Positions 1-27,417 of a DNA stretch of 64,000 nt are shown here, in pieces. Positions within the stretch are counted from its first letter, which is position 1. Each line of letters opens with the position of its first letter. The stretch comes from Lactarius indigo (Eukaryota > Basidiomycota > Agaricomycetes > Russulales > Russulaceae): the NCBI GenBank assembly GCA_025766275.1, contig JAFKAC010000089.1:62001-126000 (forward strand), written 5' to 3'. The notes below the pieces were generated by a model. That model was not told the DNA's origin and searched no databases. It was given only the letters and a program-made list of their open reading frames with translations. Both the position numbers and the translations under genes were made by a program.

Positions 1-3000
1 ATTGTTCGAGTTCTTGATTGACGCGTTCAGTTTCTCCATCGGTTTGTGGGTGGAAGGCTGTAGATAGCGTGGATTTGACTCCGAGTTTGTTCCAAATTTC
101 TTGCATGACCTTTGATGCAAATTGGGGGCCTCTGTCGGAAATAACCTGTCGAGGTAGGCCAGTACGTCTCCAGACGTTTTCAAGGTAGAGTTGGGCTGTT
201 TCGTCTGCAGTGATGGTTTTGTTGCAAGGGGAAATGACTATGGCTTTGCTAAGTCGGTCAACTACTACGAATAGTGAATCGTAGTTGTGGGATAGGGGAA
301 GGTCGGTGATGAAGTCCATTGTGATGGTTCCCCATATTTCTTCTGGTATTGCATTTGGTTGTAGGGGTACTTGGGTACGTGGTTTGATTTTAGTGGTTTG
401 ACATGTGGCGCAACCATCAACATAGGTCTTAACGAATGTTGATATGCCTGGCCACCAGAAGTCTCGAGATATTAACTCATAGGTCTTCCATCGCCCTGGA
501 TGTCCTGTGGCAATGTGGTCATGGTATGTTTTAACAATGTCTCTTCGTAAGTTGTCATCCTTTGGAACGTAGACTTGTCCTTTGAACAAGATAATGCCAT
601 CTTCTAAGTTCCATTCTTCTAGGCCTTTAGCTAGGGATCGAGGACCATTTTTTAGGAGAGACTCCAGAGCCATGCTGACTTCCTTGTCGTAGGTCTGGGT
701 GTTTTTGATACGCTGCCGGAGGGTGGTATCTCCTTGAATGGTTACTGCAGTTCGTTGTACTGCGTTAATGGAAAAATACTTGGTGTCCAGGAGTACTCGC
801 TTTTCATCTTCATCCGCTATCCCCTTTTTATGATCTGGACGCCGAGACAGTGCATCAGATTTGTTCTGCGTCCCAGGTTTGTGGATGATGATGAACTGGA
901 AGCGAGAGAGGAAAAGGGCCCAACGGGCCTGCCGGCGGGAAAGTTTCTGTTTTGTAGTAAAATAGACAAGGTTGCCATGGTCAGACCAGATTTCAGTAAC
1001 GTCTTCGCGGCCCTCCAGGTAGTGTCGAAAGGCATGAAGGGCGTGGATGATGGCGAGGAGTTCCTTATCACAGATTTCATAGTGACGCTCAGCAGGAAGG
1101 AGGGATTTTGAAAGGAAGGTGACAGGGTGCCATCGTTGCAAGGCATCAGGTTGTTCGAGAATGGCACCGGTAGCAAAATCGCTTGCGTCGGTGATGAGGC
1201 GGAAGGGCTTTGAATGGTCAGGCAGGGCAAGGACAGGAGCCGTGGTGAAGCATGTAATCAGGGTGCGGAAAGCGCTTTCCGCCGCGGTATCCCAAGAAAA
1301 GGGAACGTCTTTCTTGGTCAGATCAAACAAGGGGCGGGCGATAGTGGAGTAGTCTTTAATGAAGCGTCGATAGAAATTACAAAAGCCTAAGAAGGCTTGT
1401 ACTTGTTTGACAGTGCGCGGAGTGGGCCATTGAGTAATACCTGCAACCTTTGCAGGATCCATAGAGACTTGGCCATCGGAAATGACGATTCCAAGGTATT
1501 CGACTGAGGTTTGTGCAAATGTACATTTCTCAGGTTTCAGGTAGAGGTCGTGGCGTTCCAGCCGTTGAAGCACGTCATGTGTCAACGCTGTGAGTGAGGA
1601 GATATCTTCTGTGAAGATCAAGATGTCATCGAGGTAGACCACTACGTGTCCACCGTCAATCAAGGACTCGAAGATTTGATTCATGAATGTTTGGAAAGTG
1701 GCAGGGGCATTGCAGAGGCCAAAAGTCATTACGGTTGGCTCGAAAAGTCCTAAGGATGTTTTGAAGGCTGCCTTGTATTCATCACCTTCGCGGATGCGGA
1801 TATTGTTGTAACCCCAACGAATATCTAGCTTGGTAAAGTAGCGCGCGCCATGGAGTTTGTCGATAAGTTCAGGGATAAGGGGAAGAGGGGCTGCGTTTTT
1901 AATGGTTATATCATTGAGGGCGCGGTAGTCTTGCACAGGTCGGAGTTTGCCATCCTTTTTGTCGACAAAGAAGAAGGGGGAGGCCATGGGTGACTTAGAT
2001 GGTCGAATGTAACCTTTCTTTAGGTGTTCAGAGATGTATTCCTTGAGGGCATCGGATTCTTTTGGCGTGAGTCGATAAATGCCACAATTCTTCATAGTGG
2101 CTCCTGGTTTGAGATCGATGGCATGATCCCAAGGTTGGTGTTTGGGTAGTCGGTGGGACGCAGTTTCGCTGAATACTTTGGTGTAGCGTTGGAAGTGACT
2201 CGGAATGTGGTCGGTGGAAGGCTTGGGTGCAGTTCGTGCTGCTATCTTGGTGCTTGTAGTTACTTTGGATCGGATGGCAAGGTGGTCGTACTTGTTGAAG
2301 CTGTGAATCCACAGCCAGGGTTCGCAGGTATCTTGGATGAAGGTCGGTTCCAGGGGTTCAACTTCGTCATGCACAGGGAGGCAGGTTTCTTGGTCAAGGT
2401 CGAGTTCAAGGATGTTAATAGTCGTATGTCGCGTTTGTGGTGTTTTCGAAGAGATGACAACCGCTGAGGAGGACAGGGTGCAGGTTTTTGGGCATCGGGT
2501 GAAGGCTATTTTTGGTTGATGCCAATCGATTTCCGGATTATGCGCTTGGAGCCAATCTGTTCCTAAGATTATATCGTGCTCCCCTAGAGTAGTTGCATAG
2601 AGTTCCACAGTTTCGTCGTGGTAGTTGTCATCAGAAGTTCTGATCCGTAGTCTCTGGATCGTAGTATTCCTAACAGATCCCATCTTGTTGGGAGACCCAT
2701 CCACGTTTCTAACTGGTAAGGGTTTAATTAGTGTTCGCATTGTTAGGTTGTTTGCACGCGCAAACCCATCATCCACGATGATGCCCTCCGCACCACTGTC
2801 CAACAGGGCACGGGCACTGATTTCTTTGCCAGACTTCTTTCCTACTAGTGTAACTCTGAGAACAATTGAAGGAGCTCTCCTATTCCGAATTGTTTCTACA
2901 GGTACATGCTCGGCTCCGAGCGTCTCTAGTAGGGAAAGGCCGTGTACAACGCTACTGGCACGAATACTTCCAATCGACAGTGCTACGATGGAAGAGCCTA

Positions 3001-3007
3001 AAAATCC
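1..3007 (-). CDS. pol: Copy A pol polyprotein (PR-RT-RNaseH-IN), partial
   Basis: Aspartic protease, reverse transcriptase, RNase H and integrase for element replication. The protease motif LDSGAEG, RT motif YLDD, RNase H motif TDAS, the integrase HHCC finger and integrase D motifs are readable in one uninterrupted frame. The 3' end, including the GPY/F module and chromodomain, lies outside the window. The frame is -1 relative to gag and has no start of its own, opening just upstream of the gag stop, so it is expected as a Gag-Pol frameshift product. Every stretch compared with copy B pol is identical. Confidence 0.93.
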
Positions 3008-4548
3008 TCATTAATAGGCACCGAACGCGGACGTGCGTCCGGGTCAAAAGGGAGTATCTCTCGATATATCGCTCCAATGTTTGCTGGGTGGTCAGCAGGT
3101 GCTTCCTCCTGACTTGGTTCATCAACAAAGGCGCCGCGCGCCCTAGCATTGTTGTTGGATTGGCCTCCTTTGGCTTTCATGGCTGCCGTCTTGGCGTGAC
3201 ATTCTTTAAGTACGTGGCCTGGTTTGCCACAGTACAGGCAGAGTTTATTCTTGAAGCAATACTCTCGCTCTTCCTTGGTAAGTTTGGCTTTTGGTTTAGT
3301 GGTGCGCGATGAGGAGGCGTTGACATTTACGCTATCGTCCTCCGCCAGGACTGCTCGCCCTGAAGTAGGCTTATGGGTTTTGTTAAACTGGTTAATGGCA
3401 TGACCAGCGTAAATTCGATAGGTGCGATCGAATTCTCGTGCTTTCTCAACAAGGGTGTCGAAGGTGGTAGGGATGGGGGATATGCCGAGCAGCTTCATAT
3501 TCAGAGCTGTCGGAATAGCTTGTCGGAAAGCATACATCTTGGTTTGTTCATTTGCACCACTCCGTGTAGCATGGGTTGACCATTCTTGGAACCATTCGTT
3601 GAAAGGTCGGGTCCCCATCTTTAGAGAATACATTTTGTTGGTGGATTCCATGGCAGTATGACCAGGAACAAAGTGTGCATCAAAGTCAGTTTTGAACTGC
3701 GCCCAGGTGCCAAAGGATATTGCCGCTCCTCCGGTTGGGTTCAAGGCTTTCTTTTGTCTATCTTGAGCCCATTCTCCGGCTGAGGTCCCAACCTTGAAGT
3801 AGGTGAGAGCAGTAGATATCTTTTTATCGTCTGAATTAAAGATATCTTGGTTTAGGTGGAAGTAGTTGGCTAGGTTGTTCCAAAAAGCTTTGGCATGGTT
3901 GGGCTTGCCATCAAAGGGCTCAGGCGCTGCACCTAAGATTTTTGCGGGTGCAGGTGCTGCCATTGCAGTGGGTACAGGCGGAACAGGTAAGGGGGGTGCT
4001 GAGGAAGAGGCTTGAACAGTTAGGGGTGGTGATGGGAGTCGAGGTGGGGGAACTGTTGCAGGGAAACGGCTAGGGCCGGAGGTACTAGGGGAAATCTGGG
4101 GTGTCGAGGGTCGGGAGGTTACTTGGGATAGTAGACCAGAGAGTTTTTTGGTAGTAGTGTCTAGGATTTGCGATACTTCCTCTGTGTCACTGTCTGAATC
4201 TTCGGATTGACTAGGTGTGGTAAAATGGACTGGTTTGTTGTTTAGGTAGATCCACTGTTCGTTTACAAAGTTCCAACGAACGTTCTTTCCTTTGAAAGTG
4301 GCGTGTAGGGAATTGTAGCTTAAGTCTTTGACCTTGTCGATACCAGGAAAGGCTTCTTTTAAGTCTTGAAAAACGATTTGGTGTTGGGTGGCAACTATTG
4401 TCCACGGGTGTTTTCCTGTAGGACTACAGATATCCTCTTCCTTCCACTTGGTGTAGTAAAGATTATCGGTGAGGGAAAAATAGGGGTCGAAGAAGTATAC
4501 TGGGATGTGGGCTTTTTCTTCAGGTGTGAGAGGTCGTTGCGTATTCAT
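2998..4548 (-). CDS. gag: Copy A Gag
   Basis: Capsid and nucleocapsid precursor of 516 aa that packages the element RNA. It starts at a real ATG, the first useful AUG of the unspliced RNA. N-terminal 120 residues are family-specific; a Pro/Ser-rich linker follows (about 130-200), then a Ty3-type capsid region, and a CCHC zinc knuckle (CLYCGKPGHVLKEC, about residues 437-450). It differs from copy B Gag by only four substitutions seen (residue 12 and three near 103-116) and is identical after that. ORF3 ends with TAG four bases upstream of this ATG. Confidence 0.95.
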   Translation of the reverse strand: MNTQRPLTPEEKAHIPVYFFDPYFSLTDNLYYTKWKEEDICSPTGKHPWTIVATQHQIVFQDLKEAFPGIDKVKDLSYNSLHATFKGKNVRWNFVNEQWIYLNNKPVHFTTPSQSEDSDSDTEEVSQILDTTTKKLSGLLSQVTSRPSTPQISPSTSGPSRFPATVPPPRLPSPPLTVQASSSAPPLPVPPVPTAMAAPAPAKILGAAPEPFDGKPNHAKAFWNNLANYFHLNQDIFNSDDKKISTALTYFKVGTSAGEWAQDRQKKALNPTGGAAISFGTWAQFKTDFDAHFVPGHTAMESTNKMYSLKMGTRPFNEWFQEWSTHATRSGANEQTKMYAFRQAIPTALNMKLLGISPIPTTFDTLVEKAREFDRTYRIYAGHAINQFNKTHKPTSGRAVLAEDDSVNVNASSSRTTKPKAKLTKEEREYCFKNKLCLYCGKPGHVLKECHAKTAAMKAKGGQSNNNARARGAFVDEPSQEEAPADHPANIGAIYREILPFDPDARPRSVPINEDF

Positions 4549-4551
4549 ACA

Positions 4552-5253
4552 CTAGTTCTGCAGACGGGTGACAGTCCAACTGTCTATGTTCCAAGGGTAA
4601 TAGACCTTATAGGCAGGGAGCAAGATGGCACGGTCTGGGTGGTTGGTTCTTTGTTGTCGACGGATCCAATGGTATTCTTCCCAAATACCAAAGTGGGTTA
4701 GGATGGTCTTAGTTCTCCACAAGAAGTCTTGGAAGTATAGGGGGCTGGTGGTGATCTCTGTTGCCCTAGTGAGGGGTTGAGCGAAGAACAAGGTTTCGTT
4801 GGTATGTCGGTTTTGATAGAGGAGGGTACAGTGGCGCTTGAAAACGTCGAGTTCTCTGGGGGTTCGTGTGGGTAAACTTTTGGTTACGAGGATTGCTTCT
4901 GGAAGGTGACAGTAGATCTCTCTTGGTTGGGTTTCGAGGTACTGTGCTTCGTCACTGCTAGTGGTGTGTTGTCTAGGGATGTCTTGGATACTAGGGAAGA
5001 CAGGTTCGTGTGGGCTGGATTGGTTAATACTAGGGAGTTGGCTAGGGGTTCGTCGATGGGTACGGGCTGCTTGTCTTGGAATTACTGGGGTAGTGTTTGT
5101 AGAGGTAAGAGGACGGGTGTCTACTTGGGGACGGTGGTGACGCCTTCTTGTAGTGCGTTGAGAGGATGCCAGGGTGACTGCCCAATTTGTGATGGGTTCC
5201 AGGTTGATGTTTGACAGGTGTAATCTTCTCGGGTTTTCGCTTAAAGTTGCGAC
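4552..5253 (-). CDS. Copy A ORF3, pre-gag accessory protein (no Met codon)
   Basis: A 233-codon frame that opens directly after a TAA (5254-5256) as GTC and ends at TAG just before the gag ATG. It contains no ATG. The N-terminal part is Arg/Pro/Thr-rich and variable. The C-terminal 110 residues are well conserved with copy B ORF3, with short shared motifs such as LPTRTPRELDVF, HFGIWEEYHWIRR and LPAYKVYYPW. I recognise no family. Conservation of the protein despite base divergence argues that it is translated. The start is unresolved: the base triplet at the opening is AG|TC, which a splice junction would turn into AUC rather than AUG. Function unknown. Confidence 0.7.
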   Translation of the reverse strand, partial: VATLSENPRRLHLSNINLEPITNWAVTLASSQRTTRRRHHRPQVDTRPLTSTNTTPVIPRQAARTHRRTPSQLPSINQSSPHEPVFPSIQDIPRQHTTSSDEAQYLETQPREIYCHLPEAILVTKSLPTRTPRELDVFKRHCTLLYQNRHTNETLFFAQPLTRATEITTSPLYFQDFLWRTKTILTHFGIWEEYHWIRRQQRTNHPDRAILLPAYKVYYPWNIDSWTVTRLQN

Positions 5254-6331: not shown

Positions 6332-6380
6332 CTTAAAACCACTCGGTTTAAGACCTTCGTAGATAGTAGCGTTTACTTAC
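6332..6380 (-). promoter_or_regulatory. Predicted 49-nt intron creating the ORF2 start codon (copy A)
   Basis: On the minus strand the donor reads A|GTAAGT (exon ends at 6381) and the acceptor reads TTTTAAG|TG (exon resumes at 6331). Removal joins A to TG, giving ATG followed by the ORF2 codons CCC CCA. Copy B has the same arrangement with 52 nt. The acceptor AG sits in the 3' arm of a stem-loop with a GAGT loop. No strong branch-point consensus is visible, and the acceptor is AAG rather than CAG, so this is a prediction. Confidence 0.55.
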
Positions 6381-7724: not shown

Positions 7725-7780
7725 CTGAGAAAGCCCGAGGTCAGTCTATTAAAGAGACTGTCCAAGTGTGGTGAACTCAC
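7725..7780 (-). promoter_or_regulatory. Predicted 56-nt leader intron spanning the PBS (copy A)
   Basis: The donor A|GTGAGT lies 14 bp inside the LTR end and the acceptor TTTCTCAG|TG is 56 nt away, with an ACTGAC branch-point-like motif in between. Joining creates ATG at the start of ORF1. The intron holds the primer-binding site, so the spliced RNA could not be reverse transcribed. Copy B has the same sites at the same spacing although the surrounding bases differ. Confidence 0.7.
7755..7764 (-). other. Self-priming PBS, copy A
   Basis: The minus-strand decamer TGGACAGTCT begins two bases after the LTR. It is the exact complement of AGACTGTCCA in the LTR (7949-7958), which sits about 30 nt downstream of the TATA box, that is, near the predicted RNA 5' end. 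This matches the Tf1/sushi self-priming scheme rather than a tRNA primer. Confidence 0.65.
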
Positions 7781-17579: not shown

Positions 17580-17708
17580 TGTCACGAACCTATAAACCTG
17601 GTCGTGACTCAAGGCGCTTAGGACCGGACCGGACCGGACCGGGCTTACATCATCAGCTTCCTAAAGGGGAAATCCGAAATCGGAGTTTGAATTTCGCTCT
17701 CCGACGAT

Positions 17709-17832
17709 CACGTGATGCGTCACGTGATTACTCTGTCTTTCCAAGTCACATGTGCACATGCACGTGTATCAATCAACGATTGATAGTTTATCGATCAATG
17801 AAGATAATCAACCAAGTCACAAGGAACACGTG
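17709..17832. promoter_or_regulatory. Cluster of four CACGTG motifs in LTR U3
   Basis: CACGTG occurs at 17709, 17721, 17761 and 17827, the first two as part of the longer ATCACGTGAT and GTCACGTGAT palindromes. Such E-box/G-box hexamers are bound by bHLH factors of the Cbf1/Pho4/SREBP type in fungi. The cluster is kept in all three LTRs apart from CpG-type changes nearby. Confidence 0.45.
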
Positions 17833-18047
17833 ATCTAATCACGGGTTTCGCAGCTGCTGCGGAATCACGCCACTATGGTGCAATATGGCGCCATCGACTG
17901 CGGCGCAGTCGTACCATGCTTATCCTGTATTCTGATTGGACAGTATTAATAACCTGTCTCTGGAATGTTCCAATCTGCAGTATTGCGCAGCACCCGTGGA
18001 CAGGCCCTAAGCCTGCCCTAAAGTTACGCACAGACCACCCCCTGTAG

Positions 18048-18092
18048 TATATAAGCTAGCTCAATCTATCGGACAGTCCCTCAGACTGTCCA
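18048..18092 (+). promoter_or_regulatory. Core promoter and 5'-end stem-loop
   Basis: TATATAA at 18048-18054 is followed about 17-37 nt later by an inverted repeat GGACAGT (18071-18077) / ACTGTCC (18085-18091). The right arm overlaps AGACTGTCCA (18083-18092), the segment complementary to the PBS, so the RNA start is predicted in or just before it. Confidence 0.6.
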
Positions 18093-18260
18093 CTTGTGAC
18101 ATCTTCCTCTCTTGCCTCTCAGCTCCTTCGAGTGCCCCACCTTGTGTGCGCCACTATCTTCTTTGAGCCAAGACGCCCCCTCTTCGCCCCCTTCAACGCT
18201 CTCTCCGTCTCTACCTCGCCCGCCGTCGTCTTCAACCGTATCCCTCGCTGTCGAGTGACA

Positions 18261-18316
18261 GTGAGTTCACCACACTTGGACAGTCTCTCCAATAGACTGA
18301 CCCCGGGCTGTTCCAG
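18261..18316 (+). promoter_or_regulatory. Predicted 56-nt leader intron spanning the PBS (copy B)
   Basis: Donor A|GTGAGT (exon ends 18260), branch motif CTGAC (18297-18301, 15-16 nt from the acceptor), acceptor TTCCAG|TG (exon resumes 18317). Length and signals are typical for a basidiomycete intron. The joined bases A+TG make the initiator ATG of ORF1 in the right frame. Copy A keeps all three signals and the exact length. Confidence 0.72.
18277..18286 (+). other. Self-priming PBS, copy B
   Basis: TGGACAGTCT lies two bases after the 5' LTR and is perfectly complementary to AGACTGTCCA in R (18083-18092). It does not look like the 3' end of a common tRNA primer. Self-priming by the RNA 5' end is established for Tf1 and related chromoviruses. 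Confidence 0.65.
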
Positions 18317-19578
18317 TGACTGACTATAACTACGAGTACGACTTCTCGCAGTACGGTCAGTGGGACGGAGACTCTGCCAGCTACCAGTCAGAGTTCGACA
18401 ACCAAGGTAGCCCCCTCAACTTTTCCCGAACTTCCCCTGTCCCCTCTTCCTCTGCTGTCCGTCTTGACAGCCTCCGCTTTACCGCCCCCTACACCCCCGC
18501 CACCTTCGGTGGTAACGAACCCCCTGCCCCTGTTGCCCTTGTTCGGGACGCAACCCCCGAACTAGTTTACCCCTACACTCCGGCTGAAGAAGCCACCCCT
18601 TGTCCTTCCCCTCATTCCCTTTCCCCCAGTGTCGCCCAGTTCTACGAAGAGGTCCTCGAGATCATCGACCTCAACGGGAACCTTGTCCCCTTGTCCCCTG
18701 AACCCCGCGCCGAGTCTGCGCCTCCCCTCCGAGTCCCGACCCCCCGCCCCCCTGTTTCTCTTCGTGGCTCTCCTTCGCCACCTCCTGTTCTTCCTCCGAC
18801 TCCTCGTCGCTCTTTGTCTCCTGTTCCGGTCCCCTCCCGCCTTGCAACCCCCGACTCGCCGATTAACTACGAGCGAGTAGCAGAACAAGGCCCAGTCTTT
18901 CCCCCGGCCCCTCACCCCCACCAAGAAAACCTTCCCCCGCTTGGCGCCACCGCCTACCAAGCCCCTCCTTGTCTCCTTCACCAAGGAGAACACCCCCACC
19001 AGTACATCGCTGTCGTCACCCCCCAAGGAGAATCTTGGCGGCCCGCCTCCACCACACTCCGGGAACTAATCACTAAAGTTCCCCTTGCCACCTCCCTCGT
19101 TACTTTTCCCCCCATCTTCCCTTCCGTCACCCCTTTTCGTCTTCTTCCTCCTCACGTTTACACCCTCTTCCCACGCATTATTGACCCCACTCAACACCCT
19201 GACTTCCCCCCCCTTTACGTCTGTTCCAAGGCCATCTACGACCTTCCCTCCCCCGACACCCCCTTTGGGACTATCCGCTATGACTTTAGGGAAGGCCTGA
19301 GACGTGCCTTCGCCCCCCTCACTAACGTCCACAGGGCAGGGTACATTGACTCTCTAGTAACCCTAGAGATCCAGGACTTTTTGGACGGAAGGATTGTTAC
19401 CACTTACGGACACTTACGCTTTTCTTTTAACGGACAAATTTACGCTTACCACCAGGCCTATTTCTTTGAGGACTTGGTTCGTTCTGCCCCTCATCTACTG
19501 GCTTATTGTCTTTCCCCCCGTATCCCTGCCGACCCCTTTAGTTTTATTTCCACCTTTCCCGACGACCAGCCACTTTAG
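18317..19578 (+). CDS. Copy B ORF1, pre-gag accessory protein (splice-made start)
   Basis: A 420-aa frame, methionine-free except for the start made by splicing A18260 to TG at 18317. Without splicing the frame begins only after TGA at 18298-18300 and has no ATG. N-terminus is acidic/aromatic (DYNYEYDFSQYGQWDGD); residues about 40-205 are Pro/Ser/Thr-rich low complexity; residues about 210-415 form a conserved globular part (LLHQGEHPH, GESWRPAS, TPFGTIRYDFREGLRR, FEDLVR). The C-terminal half is very similar to copy A while the linker is not. No hydrophobic signal or anchor. Unknown family and function. Confidence 0.75.
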
Positions 19579-19603
19579 ATAAGTGGTTATATATTTGCCT
19601 TGT

Positions 19604-19623
19604 CTTGAAACGAGTGTTTTAAG
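19604..19623 (+). other. GAGT stem-loop 1 after ORF1
   Basis: CTTGAAAC (19604-19611), loop GAGT, GTTTTAAG (19616-19623): eight pairs including one G-U. Copy A has a perfect nine-pair version with the same loop at 6394-6415. The 3' arm ends in AAG followed by TG, like a splice acceptor. Confidence 0.6.
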
Positions 19624-19635
19624 TGCAACGCAAAA

Positions 19636-19687
19636 GTAAGTAAGTGTTTACTTATTTGGGTTTTGGACTTAAATCGAGTGATTTAAG
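19636..19687 (+). promoter_or_regulatory. Predicted 52-nt intron creating the ORF2 start codon (copy B)
   Basis: Donor A|GTAAGT (exon ends 19635), acceptor TTTAAG|TG (exon resumes 19688). Joining gives ATG CCG CCT, the first codons of ORF2. Copy A has the same donor base context and acceptor with 49 nt. The leader donor at 18260 could use the same acceptor with the same outcome. The acceptor lies in a GAGT stem-loop (19667-19688). Confidence 0.55.
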
Positions 19688-19688
19688 T
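19667..19688 (+). other. GAGT stem-loop 2 overlapping the ORF2 acceptor
   Basis: ACTTAAATC (19667-19675), loop GAGT, GATTTAAGT (19680-19688): nine perfect pairs. The copy A counterpart (6332-6353) has different stem bases, a bulge and the same loop. The AG of the predicted splice acceptor and the TG of the start codon fall in the 3' arm. Confidence 0.65.
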
Positions 19689-20670
19689 GCCGCCTTCTAC
19701 TCCATTTACCTTCAACTTATCTGAAGAACAAAGGCTCGCACGAGCCCGAGTTAACTTCGAGCCCCACAGGCAGCGGCAACTTGACCGCTACTACCCCGTC
19801 ACTTCCACTTACGACCTCATCGATAACCCCCGTCTTGATTGTTGGACAGAACCCCCTACCGCCTTACGTACCCTTATCGACCTCTTTGACTTTGGAGAAG
19901 TCATCCCCGAAAGGGTTTACCACGAGTTTATTGACGATCTTTCTGAAGTTGTCAAGGCTGCCGACGAGCAACTCCTTTATTGGCATCTTTCAAACTCCGT
20001 CTCTGTCACCAACCACCCAACAGACCAACTCCTAGTGTGGACCAAGAGCGATTATCTTTGGTTTGTCCACATTCCCCCTCGTCAAGACCACTACATTCGG
20101 CAACTAGAAGACGGTTTCTCTCTTCATTATGTTGACCGACTCCGCCTCACGTATCAGGAAATACAGATTTCCTTCCAAGAACTCCGAGTGGTCATTCACC
20201 CTGACTCTGCCCCCCGTCTAGTCATCTCTGATAGTTCGGAGCTCACTTATTCCTTCGCCACCTCTGCGTGGGAAACTACCCTGACCAACCCTGACCGAAA
20301 CCTTGTCAATCCAAGTACCTGGCACTACCCCCCTTCTACCTCTGACGACCCAGAGTTAGTTTCAATTCTCAACGCTAGAGAAACTTTCCGGACTCCCCCC
20401 CTACTTTGCCGAATTACAGACCGGCTACCCCCTAGTTCCCCTGAAACTGAAGACGAATCTTCAGACTCCGACATCTCCCTACATAACGGAGATACCAACC
20501 AGCCGCCTAGTCCAAACGACGGTTGGGGACCAACTCTGACCTCAGGTCCCTGTTGGTGCTCTCAAGAAGTCTGCACCTGCGGTTATCGTCCCAACACCCC
20601 CCCGACACCCCCCAACGTAGTATTGTGGTCCCCTGGAGTTAACTATCTACCTTATAGAGAAACGGACTAG
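19688..20670 (+). CDS. Copy B ORF2, pre-gag accessory protein with CWC-CTC cluster
   Basis: A 327-aa frame with no internal methionine, opening immediately after TAA (19684-19686). The initiator would be made by splicing to TG at 19688. Shared blocks with copy A: an RQLDRYYP-like N-terminus, EQLLYWHLS, LVWTKSDYLWF, FQELRVV, a conserved acidic stretch SDSDISLHNGDT, and the cluster C-W-C-x4-C-T-C-G (about residues 289-299) followed by PPTPPNVVLW. The cluster suggests a metal-binding or disulfide element. No homologous family is recognised. Confidence 0.75.
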
Positions 20671-20691
20671 ATAGTATAGATTGTCGAGATA

Positions 20692-20711
20692 AATTTTACG
20701 AGTGTAAAATT
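20692..20711 (+). other. GAGT stem-loop 3 between ORF2 and ORF3
   Basis: AATTTTAC (20692-20699), loop GAGT, GTAAAATT (20704-20711): eight perfect pairs. Its sequence differs from loops 1 and 2 but the loop and the closing C-G pair are the same. Copy A has hairpins here too, but with other loops. Confidence 0.55.
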
Positions 20712-20725
20712 CGACAAATTCCTGA

Positions 20726-21403
20726 GTCAAAACCCTGGATCCAATCCATTGGGCAATTAACCTGGCATCCTCACACGTCGCCCAAAGAAGAACCCATCGT
20801 CGCTTCCAAGCGGACGATCGACCTATAGCCTCTACCCCTAGCACCCCTGTTACCCCAAGGAGGGCCCCCAGAGCTCGTCAAGCTACCAACACCCAGATTC
20901 CCCTTCCGAGTATTAACCAAGCTGGACCAAGTGAACCGGTGTACCCCAGTATCCAAGCAACTCCAACTGCAAGACAGCATTCCACAAGCAGCGACGAAGC
21001 GCAGTACCTCGAGACCCAACCCCGAGAAATCCATTGTCACCTCCCCGAGGCTATCCTAGTAACCAAGAGCCTACCAACCCGGACCCCCCGAGAACTCGAC
21101 GTGTTCAGGAGGCACTGTTCTCTGTTGTACCAAAACCGGCACAATCTTGAAACCCTGTACTTTTCCCAGCCCCTTACGCGCATAAGCGAGATTTCGACAA
21201 GCCCCTTGTATTTCCAAGACTTCCTGTGGAGAAGTAAGACAACCCTGACCCACTTTGGTATTTGGGAAGAATACCATTGGATCCGTCGTTCGCAAAGACC
21301 CCATCGTCCGGATAGAGCTATCCTTCTCCCCGCATACAAAGTCTACTACCCCTGGAACCTGGACAGTTGGACTGTCACCCGTCTCACCAGAAGAGGTGAA
21401 TGA
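20726..21403 (+). CDS. Copy B ORF3, pre-gag accessory protein (no Met codon)
   Basis: A 225-aa frame opening as GTC just after TGA (20723-20725), with no ATG. The N-terminal half is Arg/Pro/Thr-rich; the C-terminal 110 residues match copy A closely (LPTRTPRELDVF, HFGIWEEYHWIRR, LPAYKVYYPW). The stop TGA overlaps the gag start as ATGA, a geometry used for termination-reinitiation. The start codon is unresolved: the opening AG|TC would give AUC after splicing from an exon ending in A. Function unknown. Confidence 0.7.
   Translation, partial: VKTLDPIHWAINLASSHVAQRRTHRRFQADDRPIASTPSTPVTPRRAPRARQATNTQIPLPSINQAGPSEPVYPSIQATPTARQHSTSSDEAQYLETQPREIHCHLPEAILVTKSLPTRTPRELDVFRRHCSLLYQNRHNLETLYFSQPLTRISEISTSPLYFQDFLWRSKTTLTHFGIWEEYHWIRRSQRPHRPDRAILLPAYKVYYPWNLDSWTVTRLTRRGE
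21359..21378 (+). other. Hairpin just upstream of the gag AUG
   Basis: GACAGT, TGG loop, ACTGTC lies about 20-35 nt before the gag ATG and is kept in copy A although neighbouring bases vary. TGGACAGT here repeats the start of the PBS and is complementary to the RNA 5' end. It also encodes DSWTVT of ORF3. Confidence 0.5.
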
Positions 21404-22950
21404 ATACACAACGACCTCTCACACCAGAAGAAAAAACCCACATCCCAGTATACTTTTTCGACCCATATTTTTCCCTCACCGATAATCTTTACTACACCAA
21501 GTGGAAGGAAGAGGATATCTGTAGTCCTACAGGAAAACACCCGTGGACAATAGTTGCCACCCAACACCAAATCGTTTTTCAAGACTTAAAAGAAGCCTTT
21601 CCTGGTATCGACAAGGTCAAGGACTTAAGCTACAATTCCCTACACGCCACTTTCAAAGGAAAGAACGTTCGTTGGAACTTTGTGAACGAACAGTGGACCT
21701 ACCTAAACAACAAACCAGTCCATTTTAACACACCTAGTCCATCCGAAGATTCAGACAGCGACACAGAGGAAGTATCGCAAATCCTAGACACTACTACCAA
21801 AAAACTCTCTGGTCTACTATCCCAAGTAACCTCCCGACCCTCGACACCCCAGATTTCCCCTAGTACCTCCGGCCCTAGCCGTTTCCCTGCAACAGTTCCC
21901 CCACCTCGACTCCCATCACCACCCCTAACTGTTCAAGCCTCTTCCTCAGCACCCCCCTTACCTGTTCCGCCTGTACCCACTGCAATGGCAGCACCTGCAC
22001 CCGCAAAAATCTTAGGCGCAGCGCCTGAGCCCTTTGATGGCAAGCCCAACCATGCCAAAGCTTTTTGGAACAACCTAGCCAACTACTTCCACCTAAACCA
22101 AGATATCTTTAATTCAGACGATAAAAAGATATCTACTGCTCTCACCTACTTCAAGGTTGGGACCTCAGCCGGAGAATGGGCTCAAGATAGACAAAAGAAA
22201 GCCTTGAACCCAACCGGAGGAGCGGCAATATCCTTTGGCACCTGGGCGCAGTTCAAAACTGACTTTGATGCACACTTTGTTCCTGGTCATACTGCCATGG
22301 AATCCACCAACAAAATGTATTCTCTAAAGATGGGGACCCGACCTTTCAACGAATGGTTCCAAGAATGGTCAACCCATGCTACACGGAGTGGTGCAAATGA
22401 ACAAACCAAGATGTATGCTTTCCGACAAGCTATTCCGACAGCTCTGAATATGAAGCTGCTCGGCATATCCCCCATCCCTACCACCTTCGACACCCTTGTT
22501 GAGAAAGCACGAGAATTCGATCGCACCTATCGAATTTACGCTGGTCATGCCATTAACCAGTTTAACAAAACCCATAAGCCTACTTCAGGGCGAGCAGTCC
22601 TGGCGGAGGACGATAGCGTAAATGTCAACGCCTCCTCATCGCGCACCACTAAACCAAAAGCCAAACTTACCAAGGAAGAGCGAGAGTATTGCTTCAAGAA
22701 TAAACTCTGCCTGTACTGTGGCAAACCAGGCCACGTACTTAAAGAATGTCACGCCAAGACGGCAGCCATGAAAGCCAAAGGAGGCCAATCCAACAACAAT
22801 GCTAGGGCGCGCGGCGCCTTTGTTGATGAACCAAGTCAGGAGGAAGCACCTGCTGACCACCCAGCAAACATTGGAGCGATATATCGAGAGATACTCCCTT
22901 TTGACCCGGACGCACGTCCGCGTTCGGTGCCTATTAATGAGGATTTTTAG
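21400..22950 (+). CDS. gag: Copy B Gag
   Basis: 516-aa Gag that assembles the particle and packages RNA. It starts at the ATG overlapping the ORF3 stop; this is the third ATG of any frame in the 3.3-kb leader and the first with a long frame. N-terminal domain about 1-110, an acidic SEDSDSDTEE segment, a Pro/Ser linker to about 200, a Ty3-type capsid domain (about 205-400, with FDGKPNHAKAFW), and zinc knuckle CLYCGKPGHVLKEC (about 437-450). It ends at TAG after a T-run used for frameshifting. Confidence 0.96.
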   Translation: MNTQRPLTPEEKTHIPVYFFDPYFSLTDNLYYTKWKEEDICSPTGKHPWTIVATQHQIVFQDLKEAFPGIDKVKDLSYNSLHATFKGKNVRWNFVNEQWTYLNNKPVHFNTPSPSEDSDSDTEEVSQILDTTTKKLSGLLSQVTSRPSTPQISPSTSGPSRFPATVPPPRLPSPPLTVQASSSAPPLPVPPVPTAMAAPAPAKILGAAPEPFDGKPNHAKAFWNNLANYFHLNQDIFNSDDKKISTALTYFKVGTSAGEWAQDRQKKALNPTGGAAISFGTWAQFKTDFDAHFVPGHTAMESTNKMYSLKMGTRPFNEWFQEWSTHATRSGANEQTKMYAFRQAIPTALNMKLLGISPIPTTFDTLVEKAREFDRTYRIYAGHAINQFNKTHKPTSGRAVLAEDDSVNVNASSSRTTKPKAKLTKEEREYCFKNKLCLYCGKPGHVLKECHAKTAAMKAKGGQSNNNARARGAFVDEPSQEEAPADHPANIGAIYREILPFDPDARPRSVPINEDF

Positions 22951-22981
22951 GCTCTTCCATCGTAGCACTGTCGATTGGAAG
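22941..22981 (+). promoter_or_regulatory. -1 frameshift site between gag and pol
   Basis: The pol frame is closed upstream by TGA (22938-22940) and gag ends at TAG (22948-22950), so the shift must occur in nine bases. There the gag codons GAT TTT TAG allow a Phe tRNA to slip back on T-TTT. A stem CTTCCATCG (22954-22962) with CGATTGGAAG (22972-22981), one bulged T and a 9-nt loop, starts six bases after the slip codon, as expected for a stimulatory structure. Copy A is identical. Confidence 0.7.
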
Positions 22982-25900
22982 TATTCGTGCCAGTAGCGTT
23001 GTACACGGCCTTTCCCTACTAGAGACGCTCGGAGCCGAGCATGTACCTGTAGAAACAATTCGGAATAGGAGAGCTCCTTCAATTGTTCTCAGAGTTACAC
23101 TAGTAGGAAAGAAGTCTGGCAAAGAAATCAGTGCCCGTGCCCTGTTGGACAGTGGTGCGGAGGGCATCATCGTGGATGATGGGTTTGCGCGTGCAAACAA
23201 CCTAACAATGCGAACACTAATTAAACCCTTACCAGTTAGAAACGTGGATGGGTCTCCCAACAAGATGGGATCTGTTAGGAATACTACGATCCAGAGACTA
23301 CGGATCAGAACTTCTGATGACAACTACCACGACGAAACTGTGGAACTCTATGCAACTACTCTAGGGGAGCACGATATAATCTTAGGAACAGATTGGCTCC
23401 AAGCGCATAATCCGGAAATCGATTGGCATCAACCAAAAATAGCCTTCACCCGATGCCCAAAAACCTGCACCCTGTCCTCCTCAGCGGTTGTCATCTCTTC
23501 GAAAACACCACAAACGCGACATACGACTATTAACATCCTTGAACTCGACCTTGACCAAGAAACCTGCCTCCCTGTGCATGACGAAGTTGAACCCCTGGAA
23601 CCGACCTTCATCCAAGATACCTGCGAACCCTGGCTGTGGATTCACAGCTTCAACAAGTACGACCACCTTGCCATCCGATCCAAAGTAACTACAAGCACCA
23701 AGATAGCAGCACGAACTGCACCCAAGCCTTCCACCGACCACATTCCGAGTCACTTCCAACGCTACACCAAAGTATTCAGCGAAACTGCGTCCCACCGACT
23801 ACCCAAACACCAACCTTGGGATCATGCCATCGATCTCAAACCAGGAGCCACTATGAAGAATTGTGGCATTTATCGACTCACGCCAAAAGAATCCGATGCC
23901 CTCAAGGAATACATCTCTGAACACCTAAAGAAAGGTTACATTCGACCATCTAAGTCACCCATGGCCTCCCCCTTCTTCTTTGTCGACAAAAAGGATGGCA
24001 AACTCCGACCTGTGCAAGACTACCGCGCCCTCAATGATATAACCATTAAAAACGCAGCCCCTCTTCCCCTTATCCCTGAACTTATCGACAAACTCCATGG
24101 CGCGCGCTACTTTACCAAGCTAGATATTCGTTGGGGTTACAACAATATCCGCATCCGCGAAGGTGATGAATACAAGGCAGCCTTCAAAACATCCTTAGGA
24201 CTTTTCGAGCCAACCGTAATGACTTTTGGCCTCTGCAATGCCCCTGCCACTTTCCAAACATTCATGAATCAAATCTTCGAGTCCTTGATTGACGGTGGAC
24301 ACGTAGTGGTCTACCTCGATGACATCTTGATCTTCACAGAAGATATCTCCTCACTCACAGCGTTGACACATGACGTGCTTCAACGGCTGGAACGCCACGA
24401 CCTCTACCTGAAACCTGAGAAATGTACATTTGCACAAACCTCAGTCGAATACCTTGGAATCGTCATTTCCGATGGCCAAGTCTCTATGGATCCTGCAAAG
24501 GTTGCAGGTATTACTCAATGGCCCACTCCGCGCACTGTCAAACAAGTACAAGCCTTCTTAGGCTTTTGTAATTTCTATCGACGCTTCATTAAAGACTACT
24601 CCACTATCGCCCGCCCCTTGTTTGATCTGACCAAGAAAGACGTTCCCTTTTCTTGGGATACCGCGGCGGAAAGCGCTTTCCGCACCCTGATTACATGCTT
24701 CACCACGGCTCCTGTCCTTGCCCTGCCTGACCATTCAAAGCCCTTCCGCCTCATCACCGACGCAAGCGATTTTGCTACCGGTGCCATTCTCGAACAACCT
24801 GATGCCTTGCAACGATGGCACCCTGTCACCTTCCTTTCAAAATCCCTCCTTCCTGCTGAGCGTCACTATGAAATCTGTGATAAGGAACTCCTCGCCATCA
24901 TCCACGCCCTTCATGCCTTTCGACACTACCTGGAGGGCCGCGAAGACGTTACTGAAATCTGGTCTGACCATGGCAACCTTGTCTATTTTACTACAAAACA
25001 GAAACTTTCCCGCCGGCAGGCCCGTTGGGCCCTTTTCCTCTCTCGCTTCCAGTTCATCATCATCCACAAACCTGGGACGCAGAACAAATCTGATGCACTG
25101 TCTCGGCGTCCAGATCATAAAAAGGGGATAGCGGATGAAGATGAAAAGCGAGTACTCCTGGACACCAAGTATTTTTCCATTAACGCAGTACAACGAACTG
25201 CAGTAACCATTCAAGGAGATACCACCCTCCGGCAGCGTATCAAAAACACCCAGACCTACGACAAGGAAGTCAGCATGGCTCTGGAGTCTCTCCTAAAAAA
25301 TGGTCCTCGATCCCTAGCTAAAGGCCTAGAAGAATGGAACTTAGAAGATGGCATTATCTTGTTCAAAGGACAAGTCTACGTTCCAAAGGATGACAACTTA
25401 CGAAGAGACATTGTTAAAACATACCATGACCACATTGCCACAGGACATCCAGGGCGATGGAAGACCTATGAGTTAATATCTCGAGACTTCTGGTGGCCAG
25501 GCATATCAACATTCGTTAAGACCTATGTTGATGGTTGCGCCACATGTCAAACCACTAAAATCAAACCACGTACCCAAGTACCCCTACAACCAAATGCAAT
25601 ACCAGAAGAAATATGGGGAACCATCACAATGGACTTCATCACCGACCTTCCCCTATCCCACAACTACGATTCACTATTCGTAGTAGTTGACCGACTTAGC
25701 AAAGCCATAGTCATTTCCCCTTGCAACAAAACCATCACTGCAGACGAAACAGCCCAACTCTACCTTGAAAACGTCTGGAGACGTACTGGCCTACCTCGAC
25801 AGGTTATTTCCGACAGAGGCCCCCAATTTGCATCAAAGGTCATGCAAGAAATTTGGAACAAACTCGGAGTCAAATCCACGCTATCTACAGCCTTCCACCC

Positions 25901-26711
25901 ACAAACCGATGGAGAAACTGAACGCGTCAATCAAGAACTCGAACAATACCTCCGTGTCTTCTGCAACTTCCAACAAGATAACTGGGTAGATCTAATCCCA
26001 TTCATGGAATTTGCACACAATGCCCGACAACATAGCGCAACCCACAAATCACCCTTCGAGGTTTGGTATGGATACAAACCAGAGTTCATTCCCCCTACCC
26101 ACTTCACCACCAAAATACCTGCAGCAGAGGAGAGACTAAATGCGCTAAATCAAATCCGCTCCGAAGTTACCGCAGCCCTTAAGGTAGCAGCGGAAGTCAT
26201 GAGAGGGTTGAAAACACCCACCCCCTCTCACGAATTCAAGACAGGTGATCTAGTCTGGCTGGAAGGGACCAACATCCATACTACCCACCCCAAAGCTAAA
26301 CTTGCCCCACGACGCCACGGCCCCTTTAAAGTCCTTTCCACCTGGGGAGTCAATTGCAAACTCCAACTACCAAAGACATGGCGCATCCACCCAGTCTTCC
26401 ACAACTCCTTGATCTCCCCGTACAAAGAAAACACTACACATGGACCCAACTTCACTAGACCACCCCCGGAAATCATCCAAGGGGAAGACGAACACTACGA
26501 AGTAGAAAAGGTCCTGCAATCCAAGGTATCACCTAACAAAAAGGGCATACTCTACTTGATCAAGTGGAAGGGGTATCCTGACTCCGAAAACTCCTGGCTC
26601 CCCTCCTCCCAAATGACCCATGCGCAAGACCTTGTAAATCAATTTCACAAGGCCAACCCCAGTGCCCCTAAACCGAAGTCAACTAGTGCTAGTGGAATAG
26701 CACGACGTTAA
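22941..26711 (+). CDS. pol: Copy B pol polyprotein (PR-RT-RNaseH-IN-chromodomain)
   Basis: About 1256 codons made as a Gag-Pol fusion by -1 frameshift. Domains in order: protease LLDSGAEG (near 23140); reverse transcriptase with KLDIRWGYNNI and YLDD (about 24310); RNase H (LITDASDFATGAIL, KELLAI, about 24750-25100); integrase HHCC finger (HDHIATGHPG to CATCQ); DDE core (TMDFITDLP, ISDRGPQF, TERVNQELEQYL); GPY/F-type module (RRHGPFKVL); C-terminal chromodomain (YEVEKVLQ, YLIKWKGYPDSENSW), which in such elements directs integration to particular chromatin. The frame is unbroken and catalytic motifs are intact. Confidence 0.97.
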   Translation, partial: GFLGSSIVALSIGSIRASSVVHGLSLLETLGAEHVPVETIRNRRAPSIVLRVTLVGKKSGKEISARALLDSGAEGIIVDDGFARANNLTMRTLIKPLPVRNVDGSPNKMGSVRNTTIQRLRIRTSDDNYHDETVELYATTLGEHDIILGTDWLQAHNPEIDWHQPKIAFTRCPKTCTLSSSAVVISSKTPQTRHTTINILELDLDQETCLPVHDEVEPLEPTFIQDTCEPWLWIHSFNKYDHLAIRSKVTTSTKIAARTAPKPSTDHIPSHFQRYTKVFSETASHRLPKHQPWDHAIDLKPGATMKNCGIYRLTPKESDALKEYISEHLKKGYIRPSKSPMASPFFFVDKKDGKLRPVQDYRALNDITIKNAAPLPLIPELIDKLHGARYFTKLDIRWGYNNIRIREGDEYKAAFKTSLGLFEPTVMTFGLCNAPATFQTFMNQIFESLIDGGHVVVYLDDILIFTEDISSLTALTHDVLQRLERHDLYLKPEKCTFAQTSVEYLGIVISDGQVSMDPAKVAGITQWPTPRTVKQVQAFLGFCNFYRRFIKDYSTIARPLFDLTKKDVPFSWDTAAESAFRTLITCFTTAPVLALPDHSKPFRLITDASDFATGAILEQPDALQRWHPVTFLSKSLLPAERHYEICDKELLAIIHALHAFRHYLEGREDVTEIWSDHGNLVYFTTKQKLSRRQARWALFLSRFQFIIIHKPGTQNKSDALSRRPDHKKGIADEDEKRVLLDTKYFSINAVQRTAVTIQGDTTLRQRIKNTQTYDKEVSMALESLLKNGPRSLAKGLEEWNLEDGIILFKGQVYVPKDDNLRRDIVKTYHDHIATGHPGRWKTYELISRDFWWPGISTFVKTYVDGCATCQTTKIKPRTQVPLQPNAIPEEIWGTITMDFITDLPLSHNYDSLFVVVDRLSKAIVISPCNKTITADETAQLYLENVWRRTGLPRQVISDRGPQFASKVMQEIWNKLGVKSTLSTAFHPQTDGETERVNQELEQYLRVFCNFQQDNWVDLIPFMEFAHNARQHSATHKSPFEVWYGYKPEFIPPTHFTTKIPAAEERLNALNQIRSEVTAALKVAAEVMRGLKTPTPSHEFKTGDLVWLEGTNIHTTHPKAKLAPRRHGPFKVLSTWGVNCKLQLPKTWRIHPVFHNSLISPYKENTTHGPNFTRPPPEIIQGEDEHYEVEKVLQSKVSPNKKGILYLIKWKGYPDSENSWLPSSQMTHAQDLVNQFHKANPSAPKPKSTSASGIARR

Positions 26712-26722: not shown

Positions 26723-27417
26723 TGTCACGAACCTATAAACCTGGTCGTGACTCAAGGCGCTTAGGACTGGACCGGACCAGACCGGGCTTACGTCATCAGC
26801 TTCCTAAAGGGGAAATCCGAAATCGGAGTTTGAATTTCGCTCTCCGACGATCACGTGATGCATCACGTGATTACTCTGTCTTTCCAAGTCACATGTGCAC
26901 ATGCACGTGTATCAATCAACGATTGATAGTTTATCGATCAACGAAGATAATCAACCAAGTCACAAGGAACACGTGATCTAATCACGGGTTTCGCAGCTGC
27001 TGCGGAATCACGCCACTATGGTGCAATATGGCGCCATCGACTGCGGCGCAGTCGTACCATGCTTATCCTGTATTCTGATTGGACAGTATTAATAACCTGT
27101 CTCTGGAATGTTCCAATCCGCAGTATTGCGCAGCACCCGTGGACAGGCCCTAAGCCTGCCCTAAAGTTACGCACAGACCACCCCCTGTAGTATATAAGCT
27201 AGCTCAATCTATCGGACAGTCCCTCAGACTGTCCACTTGTGACATCTTCCTCTCTTGCCTCTCAGCTCTTTCGAGTGCCCCACCTTGTGTGCGCCACTAC
27301 CTTCTTTGAGCCAAGACGCCTCCTCTTCGTCCCCTCCGACGCTCTCTCCGTCTCTACCTCGCCCGCCGTCGTCTTCAACCGTATCCCTCGCTGTCGAGTG
27401 ACAGTGAGTTCACCACA
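26723..27417 (+). repeat. 3' LTR of copy B (695 bp)
   Basis: Same ends and length as the 5' LTR. Compared by eye it differs at about 12 sites, all C/T or G/A, many at CpG. It is followed by GGAGT, which matches the flank of copy A rather than the left flank of B. Confidence 0.97.

Follow-up and report, generated by a model that had tools for sequence, protein, structure and literature searches.

The window analysed here is a stretch of 64,000 nucleotides (nt) of Lactarius indigo (assembly GCA_025766275.1, contig JAFKAC010000089.1, positions 62,001–126,000 of the forward strand), and it carries two copies, A and B, of a Ty3/Gypsy chromovirus with a leader of about 3.1 kilobases (kb) between the 5' long terminal repeat (LTR) and gag. 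This leader is nearly free of AUG and holds three open reading frames (ORF1–ORF3) without internal methionine (Met), and we consider it probable, judging from sequence, that excision of one short intron brings an A next to a TG to form the start codon of ORF1, and that excision of a second does likewise for ORF2. The layout of the leader itself is a real and conserved design.

To examine the leader across the family, 40 stretches were taken from the source assembly (90.3 Mb, with 126 ORF2 matches, fragments counted in), of which 37 hold both leader ends (L037, L045 and L046 lack an anchor and were excluded); with the two window copies this makes 39 leaders of 3110–3224 nt. They fall into two types, A and B, and a little-decayed subset of 31 was defined by an observed/expected (o/e) CpG ratio above 0.7 after removal of the near-duplicates L017 and L025. 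The leader of copy B (18275–21399, plus strand, as for all copy B features below) contains 2 ATG (19280 and 20129) versus 28 CAT, with 17.6 ATG expected from a first-order Markov model, and that of copy A (7766–4549, minus strand) 1 ATG versus 35 CAT, with 15.1 ATG expected. The scarcity that the original prediction had reported from these two copies thus holds on recounting, and it is stronger still family-wide, with 20 ATG versus 530 expected (0.038) in the 31 little-decayed leaders, 20 of which have none. ATG is the sole outlier among the 64 triplets in these leaders: GGT, the next lowest, reaches 0.71 of its expectation, and CAT (1.05), CTG (1.05) and GTG (1.06) occur at normal levels. The R-U5 part is likewise without ATG in 32 of 36 copies. 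Synonymous-codon shuffles inside each ORF in six copies gave means of 0.9–5.1 ATG per ORF versus 0–1 observed, so the deficit lies partly in the Met-free proteins and partly in out-of-frame ATG. Old, CpG-depleted copies (o/e 0.19–0.51) have regained ATG (28 in L040, 23 in L048, 11 in L043 and 10 in L047), as would be expected if deamination of ACG yields ATG once selection has ended; these four copies form a natural control for deamination decay.

The three Met-free frames described by the original prediction exist in copy B as stop-to-stop frames at 18301–19578, 19687–20670 and 20726–21403, but coding begins inside them, at 18317 for ORF1, 19688 for ORF2 and probably 20735 for ORF3. Counting the assembled AUG, ORF1 (18317–19578) has 420 codons and ORF2 (19688–20670), which ends in a C-terminal CWC..CxCG motif, 327; ORF3 spans 20735–21403. 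Ratios of nonsynonymous to synonymous substitution (dN/dS) were computed by the Nei-Gojobori method from 18 B-type and 11 A-type copies, of which 27, 26 and 27 of the 29 were kept for ORF1, ORF2 and ORF3 after rows with short ORFs had been removed. Within the B-type the values are 0.10, 0.057 and 0.035 for ORF1, ORF2 and ORF3, and within the A-type 0.08, 0.23 and 0.037, beside 0.12 and 0.10 for the first 597 nt of gag. ORF1–3 are under purifying selection within both subfamilies (dN/dS 0.035–0.23, well below 1). Neither of the two outcomes by which the original prediction would have failed, ATG at expected levels in other copies or dN/dS near 1, was observed. In the same copies internal Met is found in 0 of 11289 residues of ORF1, 0 of 8607 of ORF2 and 1 of 5907 of ORF3. 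Homologues (97 for ORF1, 21 for ORF2 and 14 for ORF3) come from Lactarius and metagenomes; among 98 non-NCBI homologues, out of 131 distinct matches, 78 have no internal Met, and the 98 together have 35 in 34,856 residues. The proteins of ORF1, ORF2 and ORF3 have no match in Pfam, and no PDB match was found for ORF1 and ORF2. Taken together, the ATG deficit and the dN/dS values support the view that AUG is selected against in this long leader and that its three Met-less ORFs are conserved. The further idea that selection keeps AUG out so that ribosomes can scan to gag fits these data.

In the alignment ORF1 is preceded by …CAG/TG and ORF2 by …TTTAAG/TG (the slash marks the predicted junction), with GTGAGT or GTAAGT donors 47–56 nt earlier; since both donors have an A in front, splicing would give ATG. 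In copy B, predicted intron 1 (18261–18316, 56 nt, GTGAGT...CTGAC...CCAG) covers the end of the LTR together with the primer-binding site, and its removal would join A 18260 to TG 18317–18318, and predicted intron 2 (19636–19687, 52 nt) reads A/GTAAGTAAGT...TTTAAG/TG. It has an alternative donor at 19640, and this tandem donor of the B-type would produce the identical AUG. These places were recovered by a junction scan in which none was preselected, all GT[AG]NGN donors being paired with AG acceptors 42–85 nt away and a junction-made ATG followed by at least 100 codons being required. In the 39 leaders the scan returned only intron 1 (38 of 39, missing in L043) and intron 2 (35 of 39, missing in L026, L040, L041 and L043), including introns 1 and 2 of copy A at 7725–7780 and 6332–6380 on the minus strand. 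Irrespective of ORF length, the A/TG junction is present in 38 of 39 leaders for ORF1 and equally for ORF2; the scan of the 39 leaders gave none for ORF3. When at least 250 codons were required, the two introns of each copy were the only ones found on either strand of the window. The branch-point-like AGACTGAC and the AG/TG are invariant in 30 aligned copies, and frame-breaking indels occur immediately upstream of AG/TG with none after it. Across the genome the donor motif of intron 2 is intact in 55 places of the B-type and 18 of the A-type. The assembled ORF1 AUG would have G at −3 in 38 of 38 cases; the same position varies for ORF2. Three measured introns of host chaperonin genes are 52, 56 and 64 nt long with donors GTGTGT, GTAAGT and GTGCGT, so the introns of the element look ordinary for the host. 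Conserved splice sites that would open an accessory ORF, as in spliced accessory genes of retroelements, are present at the sequence level.

Predicted Lactarius proteins bear on the same junctions. Among named Lactarius gene models at NCBI, which are predictions, the residue at the ORF1 junction is Met in 13 of the 17 that carry the ORF1 N-terminal motif (mostly …LSSD/M/SDY), Val in 2 and Leu in 2, and all five models with the ORF2 motif have Met at the junction; P0001 contains both junctions within one predicted model. Two models without an organism name, P0025 (Val) and P0064 (Met), were excluded from the ORF1 tally (with them, 14 of 19 have Met). Homologues from JGI metagenomes, in which the genomic start letter is kept, begin with Val in 57, Leu in 8 and Met in 1 of 66. 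The original prediction had proposed that the ORFs are translated in another way, without saying which, and this is partly borne out. For ORF1 and ORF2 the sequence points to a specific way, short GT-AG introns that assemble A/TG and would give both an initiator Met in spliced RNA only; ORF3 alone looks CUG-started, with weaker support. Separately, the Lactarius sanguifluus models P0001, P0028, P0036 and P0062, public as ‘hypothetical protein’, include accessory ORFs that belong to such elements.

The position of intron 1 links the ORF1 start to replication. A probable TATA box (TATATAA, 18048–18054), aligned across copies, precedes the probable RNA 5' end AGACTGTCCA (18083–18092), which is placed from this box and is complementary over 10 nt to the primer-binding site TGGACAGTCT (18277–18286) inside intron 1; the motif of the RNA 5' end, AGACTGTCCACTTG, is found in 36 of 39 copies and that of the primer-binding site, CTTGGACAGTCT, in 38 of 39. 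Tf1 primes itself by an RNA 5' end complementary to its primer-binding site, and we infer the same for the window element. Removal of intron 1 would remove the primer-binding site, and the ORF1 mRNA should consequently not be reverse-transcribable.

ORF3 is the one among the three that would fit a non-AUG start on unspliced RNA. Conservation between A and B in its region begins at CTG GA, and the probable start at 20735–20737 has A at −3 and G at +4. In 30 of 30 leaders this CTG has A at −3 (L039 lacks the motif and was left out); the CTG was located by a motif containing it, so its constancy carries no independent weight. Upstream of the ORF3 start, strong CUG (purine at −3, G at +4) is seen 19 times versus 84 expected, with other near-cognates at 0.96 or above. 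The ORF3 stop UGA and the gag AUG share bases (AUGA) in leaders of the B-type, and in the A-type ORF3 ends three bases short of the gag AUG; L026 departs from this spacing, and ORF3 is broken in L028, L038, L040 and L048.

These observations suggest the following course of expression. Unspliced RNA would serve as genome and, because nearly no AUG precedes gag, as the gag-pol mRNA. RNA lacking intron 1 would give the ORF1 protein and, without the primer-binding site, would not prime reverse transcription; RNA lacking intron 2 only would give the ORF2 protein. ORF3 would probably be initiated on unspliced RNA at the good-context CUG, and ribosomes that skip ORF3 or terminate on it could proceed to gag, whose AUG overlaps the ORF3 stop or lies just beyond it. 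With AUG kept out of the leader, the first AUG met would be a splice-made one or else that of gag.

Several points weigh against this scheme. Four of the 17 Lactarius models have no Met at the ORF1 junction, and these models are predictions compared as proteins only. The copies are related, so counts over them are not independent. A genome search for intron-less copies found 0 exact matches to the ORF1 junction and 0 to the ORF2 junction; this fits spliced RNA that would not be copied and is also expected without splicing, yet RNA spliced at intron 2 only would keep the primer-binding site, and its joined copies are absent too. Gag would require scanning over ~3.3 kb to an AUG in weak context, position −3 being T in all 39 copies. 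For ORF3, only 17 of 30 leaders have the proposed CUG as their first strong one, strong CUGs occur within ORF2 of four A-type copies, and the scarcity of strong CUG does not reach significance in per-ORF synonymous shuffles (share at or below observed 0.09–0.84 for ORF1 and ORF2), which leaves the non-AUG fit of ORF3 weak in that comparison. We regard initiation of ORF3 at CUG as evenly balanced.

Other readings of the leader were weighed on the same evidence. The best placed, though unlikely, is that ORF1 and ORF2 begin at a genomic GUG by leaky scanning, as ORF I of rice tungro bacilliform virus (RTBV) does at AUU, with the introns unused. An invariant GTG does open both ORFs in the genomic reading, and RTBV, in the portion of PMC5902531 used here, has already proved that long AUG-free ORFs can precede a main ORF. 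Initiation at GUG, however, needs neither an A-preceded GTGAGT or GTAAGT donor nor a branch-point-like CTGAC; ORF2 has T at position −3 of its GTG and ORF1 mostly C, good-context GTG upstream is not depleted (o/e 1.4), and the predicted Lactarius models splice at these very junctions. Slightly less likely again is that gag is translated from an RNA in which long-range splicing has removed the whole leader, the lack of AUG serving ORF1–3 alone: leaders of both types have YAG triplets immediately ahead of the gag AUG, but inspection by eye showed nothing there that resembles a branch point, and AUG is scarce throughout the leader, even across ORF3, which must be traversed on unspliced RNA. A reading of the ORFs as exons within longer accessory mRNAs (such as one that joins the N-terminus of ORF1 to ORF2), with the junction Met incidental, finds an echo in P0001 and P0028, in which parts of ORF1 and ORF2 are fused; we hold it to be more improbable than either of the former, as ORF1 and ORF2 each have their own conserved stop, changes in the spacing between them are not multiples of three, and coding conservation of ORF2 begins at AG/TG. 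Finally, a lack of AUG by composition or chance in leaders that are C-rich (35%) and G-poor has practically no probability left and is refuted by the ATG-specific deficit, the normal CAT level and the return of ATG in decayed copies.

Beyond the two introns, the gap between ORF1 and ORF2 contains hairpins with the loop GAGU (GAGC once) in the 31 copies inspected. In copy B hairpin 1 lies at 19604–19623 and hairpin 2 at 19668–19687, where its end coincides with the intron 2 3' splice site; hairpin 3 (20692–20711), in the gap after ORF2, is seen only in B-type leaders. Bulge-free stems of 8 bp are formed by hairpin 1 in all copies and by hairpin 2 in the B-type (in L013 and L026, 7 of the 8 pairs form); hairpin 2 of the A-type needs a one-base bulge and has undergone an A-T to T-A exchange in L030–L033. 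The hairpins might mask a decoy CGAG acceptor or bind a regulator. Returning to the splice-assembled starts, we lean, by a narrow measure, to the broader proposal that a whole clade of fungal Ty3/Gypsy elements switches genes in this way: on an AUG-purged genome RNA each intron would be the start-codon cassette of one accessory gene, the first cassette would hold the primer-binding site so that the cut starting ORF1 takes the RNA out of replication, and the GAGU hairpins would tune intron retention, perhaps via an accessory protein.

The remainder of the element is that of a chromovirus, with the Pfam order protease, reverse transcriptase, RNase H and integrase and a chromodomain ending the integrase (Chromo, E 5e-13). 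Copy B is bounded by a 5' LTR (TG...CA, 17580–18274) and a 3' LTR (26723–27417); gag (21400–22950; Retrotrans_gag PF03732, E 2.9e-07) starts at the first AUG of the nearly AUG-free unspliced RNA, and pol (22941–26711) encodes the above domains together with a Tf2-1-like SH3. The gag stop lies in GATTTTTAGG (22941–22950) with pol open in the −1 frame, and a −1 frameshift is likely. Genome-wide, an ORF2 match lies 718–1263 nt upstream of 77 of 83 gag matches (the best 83 of 1524 gag candidates scored). The two leader types are 60% identical over ORF2, and the leaders of the window copies are ~80% alike; from just before gag onward these copies share 4560 nt at 100% identity (rounded; 1–4560 and 21388–25947). 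The gag starts of A-type and B-type copies are as similar as those within types (0.884 versus 0.879 and 0.910), and the nearest relative belongs to the other leader type for gag in 8 of 31 copies and for ORF1 or ORF2 in 0 of 31. These patterns likely reflect two leader modules on exchangeable gag-pol backbones, with template switching during reverse transcription as the likely cause. B-type leaders also precede a second, diverged gag type (a frame of 534 amino acids, 73–77% identity) in L011, at G000:C278:46572-48173 and in similar places; by sequence, the leader module crosses gag lineages.

One retroelement RNA must be both the genome and the template from which several proteins are translated, and here the two fates would be kept apart by something as small as whether an AUG forms where two exons meet. 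Selection is visible over ~3 kb of RNA, and scanning distance, intron retention and start-codon choice become testable together in one natural RNA. The arrangement would also explain why gene finders miss proteins of the ORF1–3 type or call GTG starts for them, and it brings to light three protein families without a Pfam match that are present in Lactarius and soil metagenomes. Alternative splicing, leaky scanning and non-AUG initiation are already known as separate parts; their combination into splice-only start codons on an AUG-purged genome RNA was not found described in the literature searched.

Among known systems, RTBV and the badnaviruses, as covered by the portion of PMC5902531 used here, have AUG-free ORFs I and II before the main ORF that are reached by leaky scanning, with an AUU start, and P4 is made from a spliced RNA. 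The window element likewise has long upstream ORFs without internal AUG before a main ORF; however, it is unrelated and resides in a fungus, its AUG-free stretch is ~3.1 kb with three ORFs as against ~900 nt, and the junction itself would make an AUG, twice, whereas in the cited portion the existing AUG of an upstream ORF is spliced to ORF IV. Cer1 of Caenorhabditis elegans, also of Ty3/Gypsy type, makes an extra protein from spliced CERV mRNA and Gag from unspliced RNA according to the part of PMC10309623 consulted; CERV, unlike the present ORFs, reuses gag sequence via multi-exon splicing, and that part describes neither an AUG-free leader nor an assembled start. In BARE1 and Drosophila copia a short alternative intron splits the RNA pools (excerpt of PMC3735527), and that splicing, by the same excerpt, favours Gag with pol removed or frame-shifted, whereas splicing here would open upstream accessory ORFs. 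The Tf2-1-like SH3 and chromodomain in pol and the complementarity of the probable RNA 5' end to the primer-binding site are shared with the Tf1/sushi-type chromoviruses. Tf1 differs in that, to our knowledge, it has just one ORF and lacks 3-kb leader ORFs. As with retroviral env and accessory mRNAs, one RNA would be genome and mRNA, with splicing picking the accessory genes. Retroviral splice donors lie downstream of the primer-binding site, whereas the donor of the present element lies in U5, upstream of it, so that splicing would delete the site.

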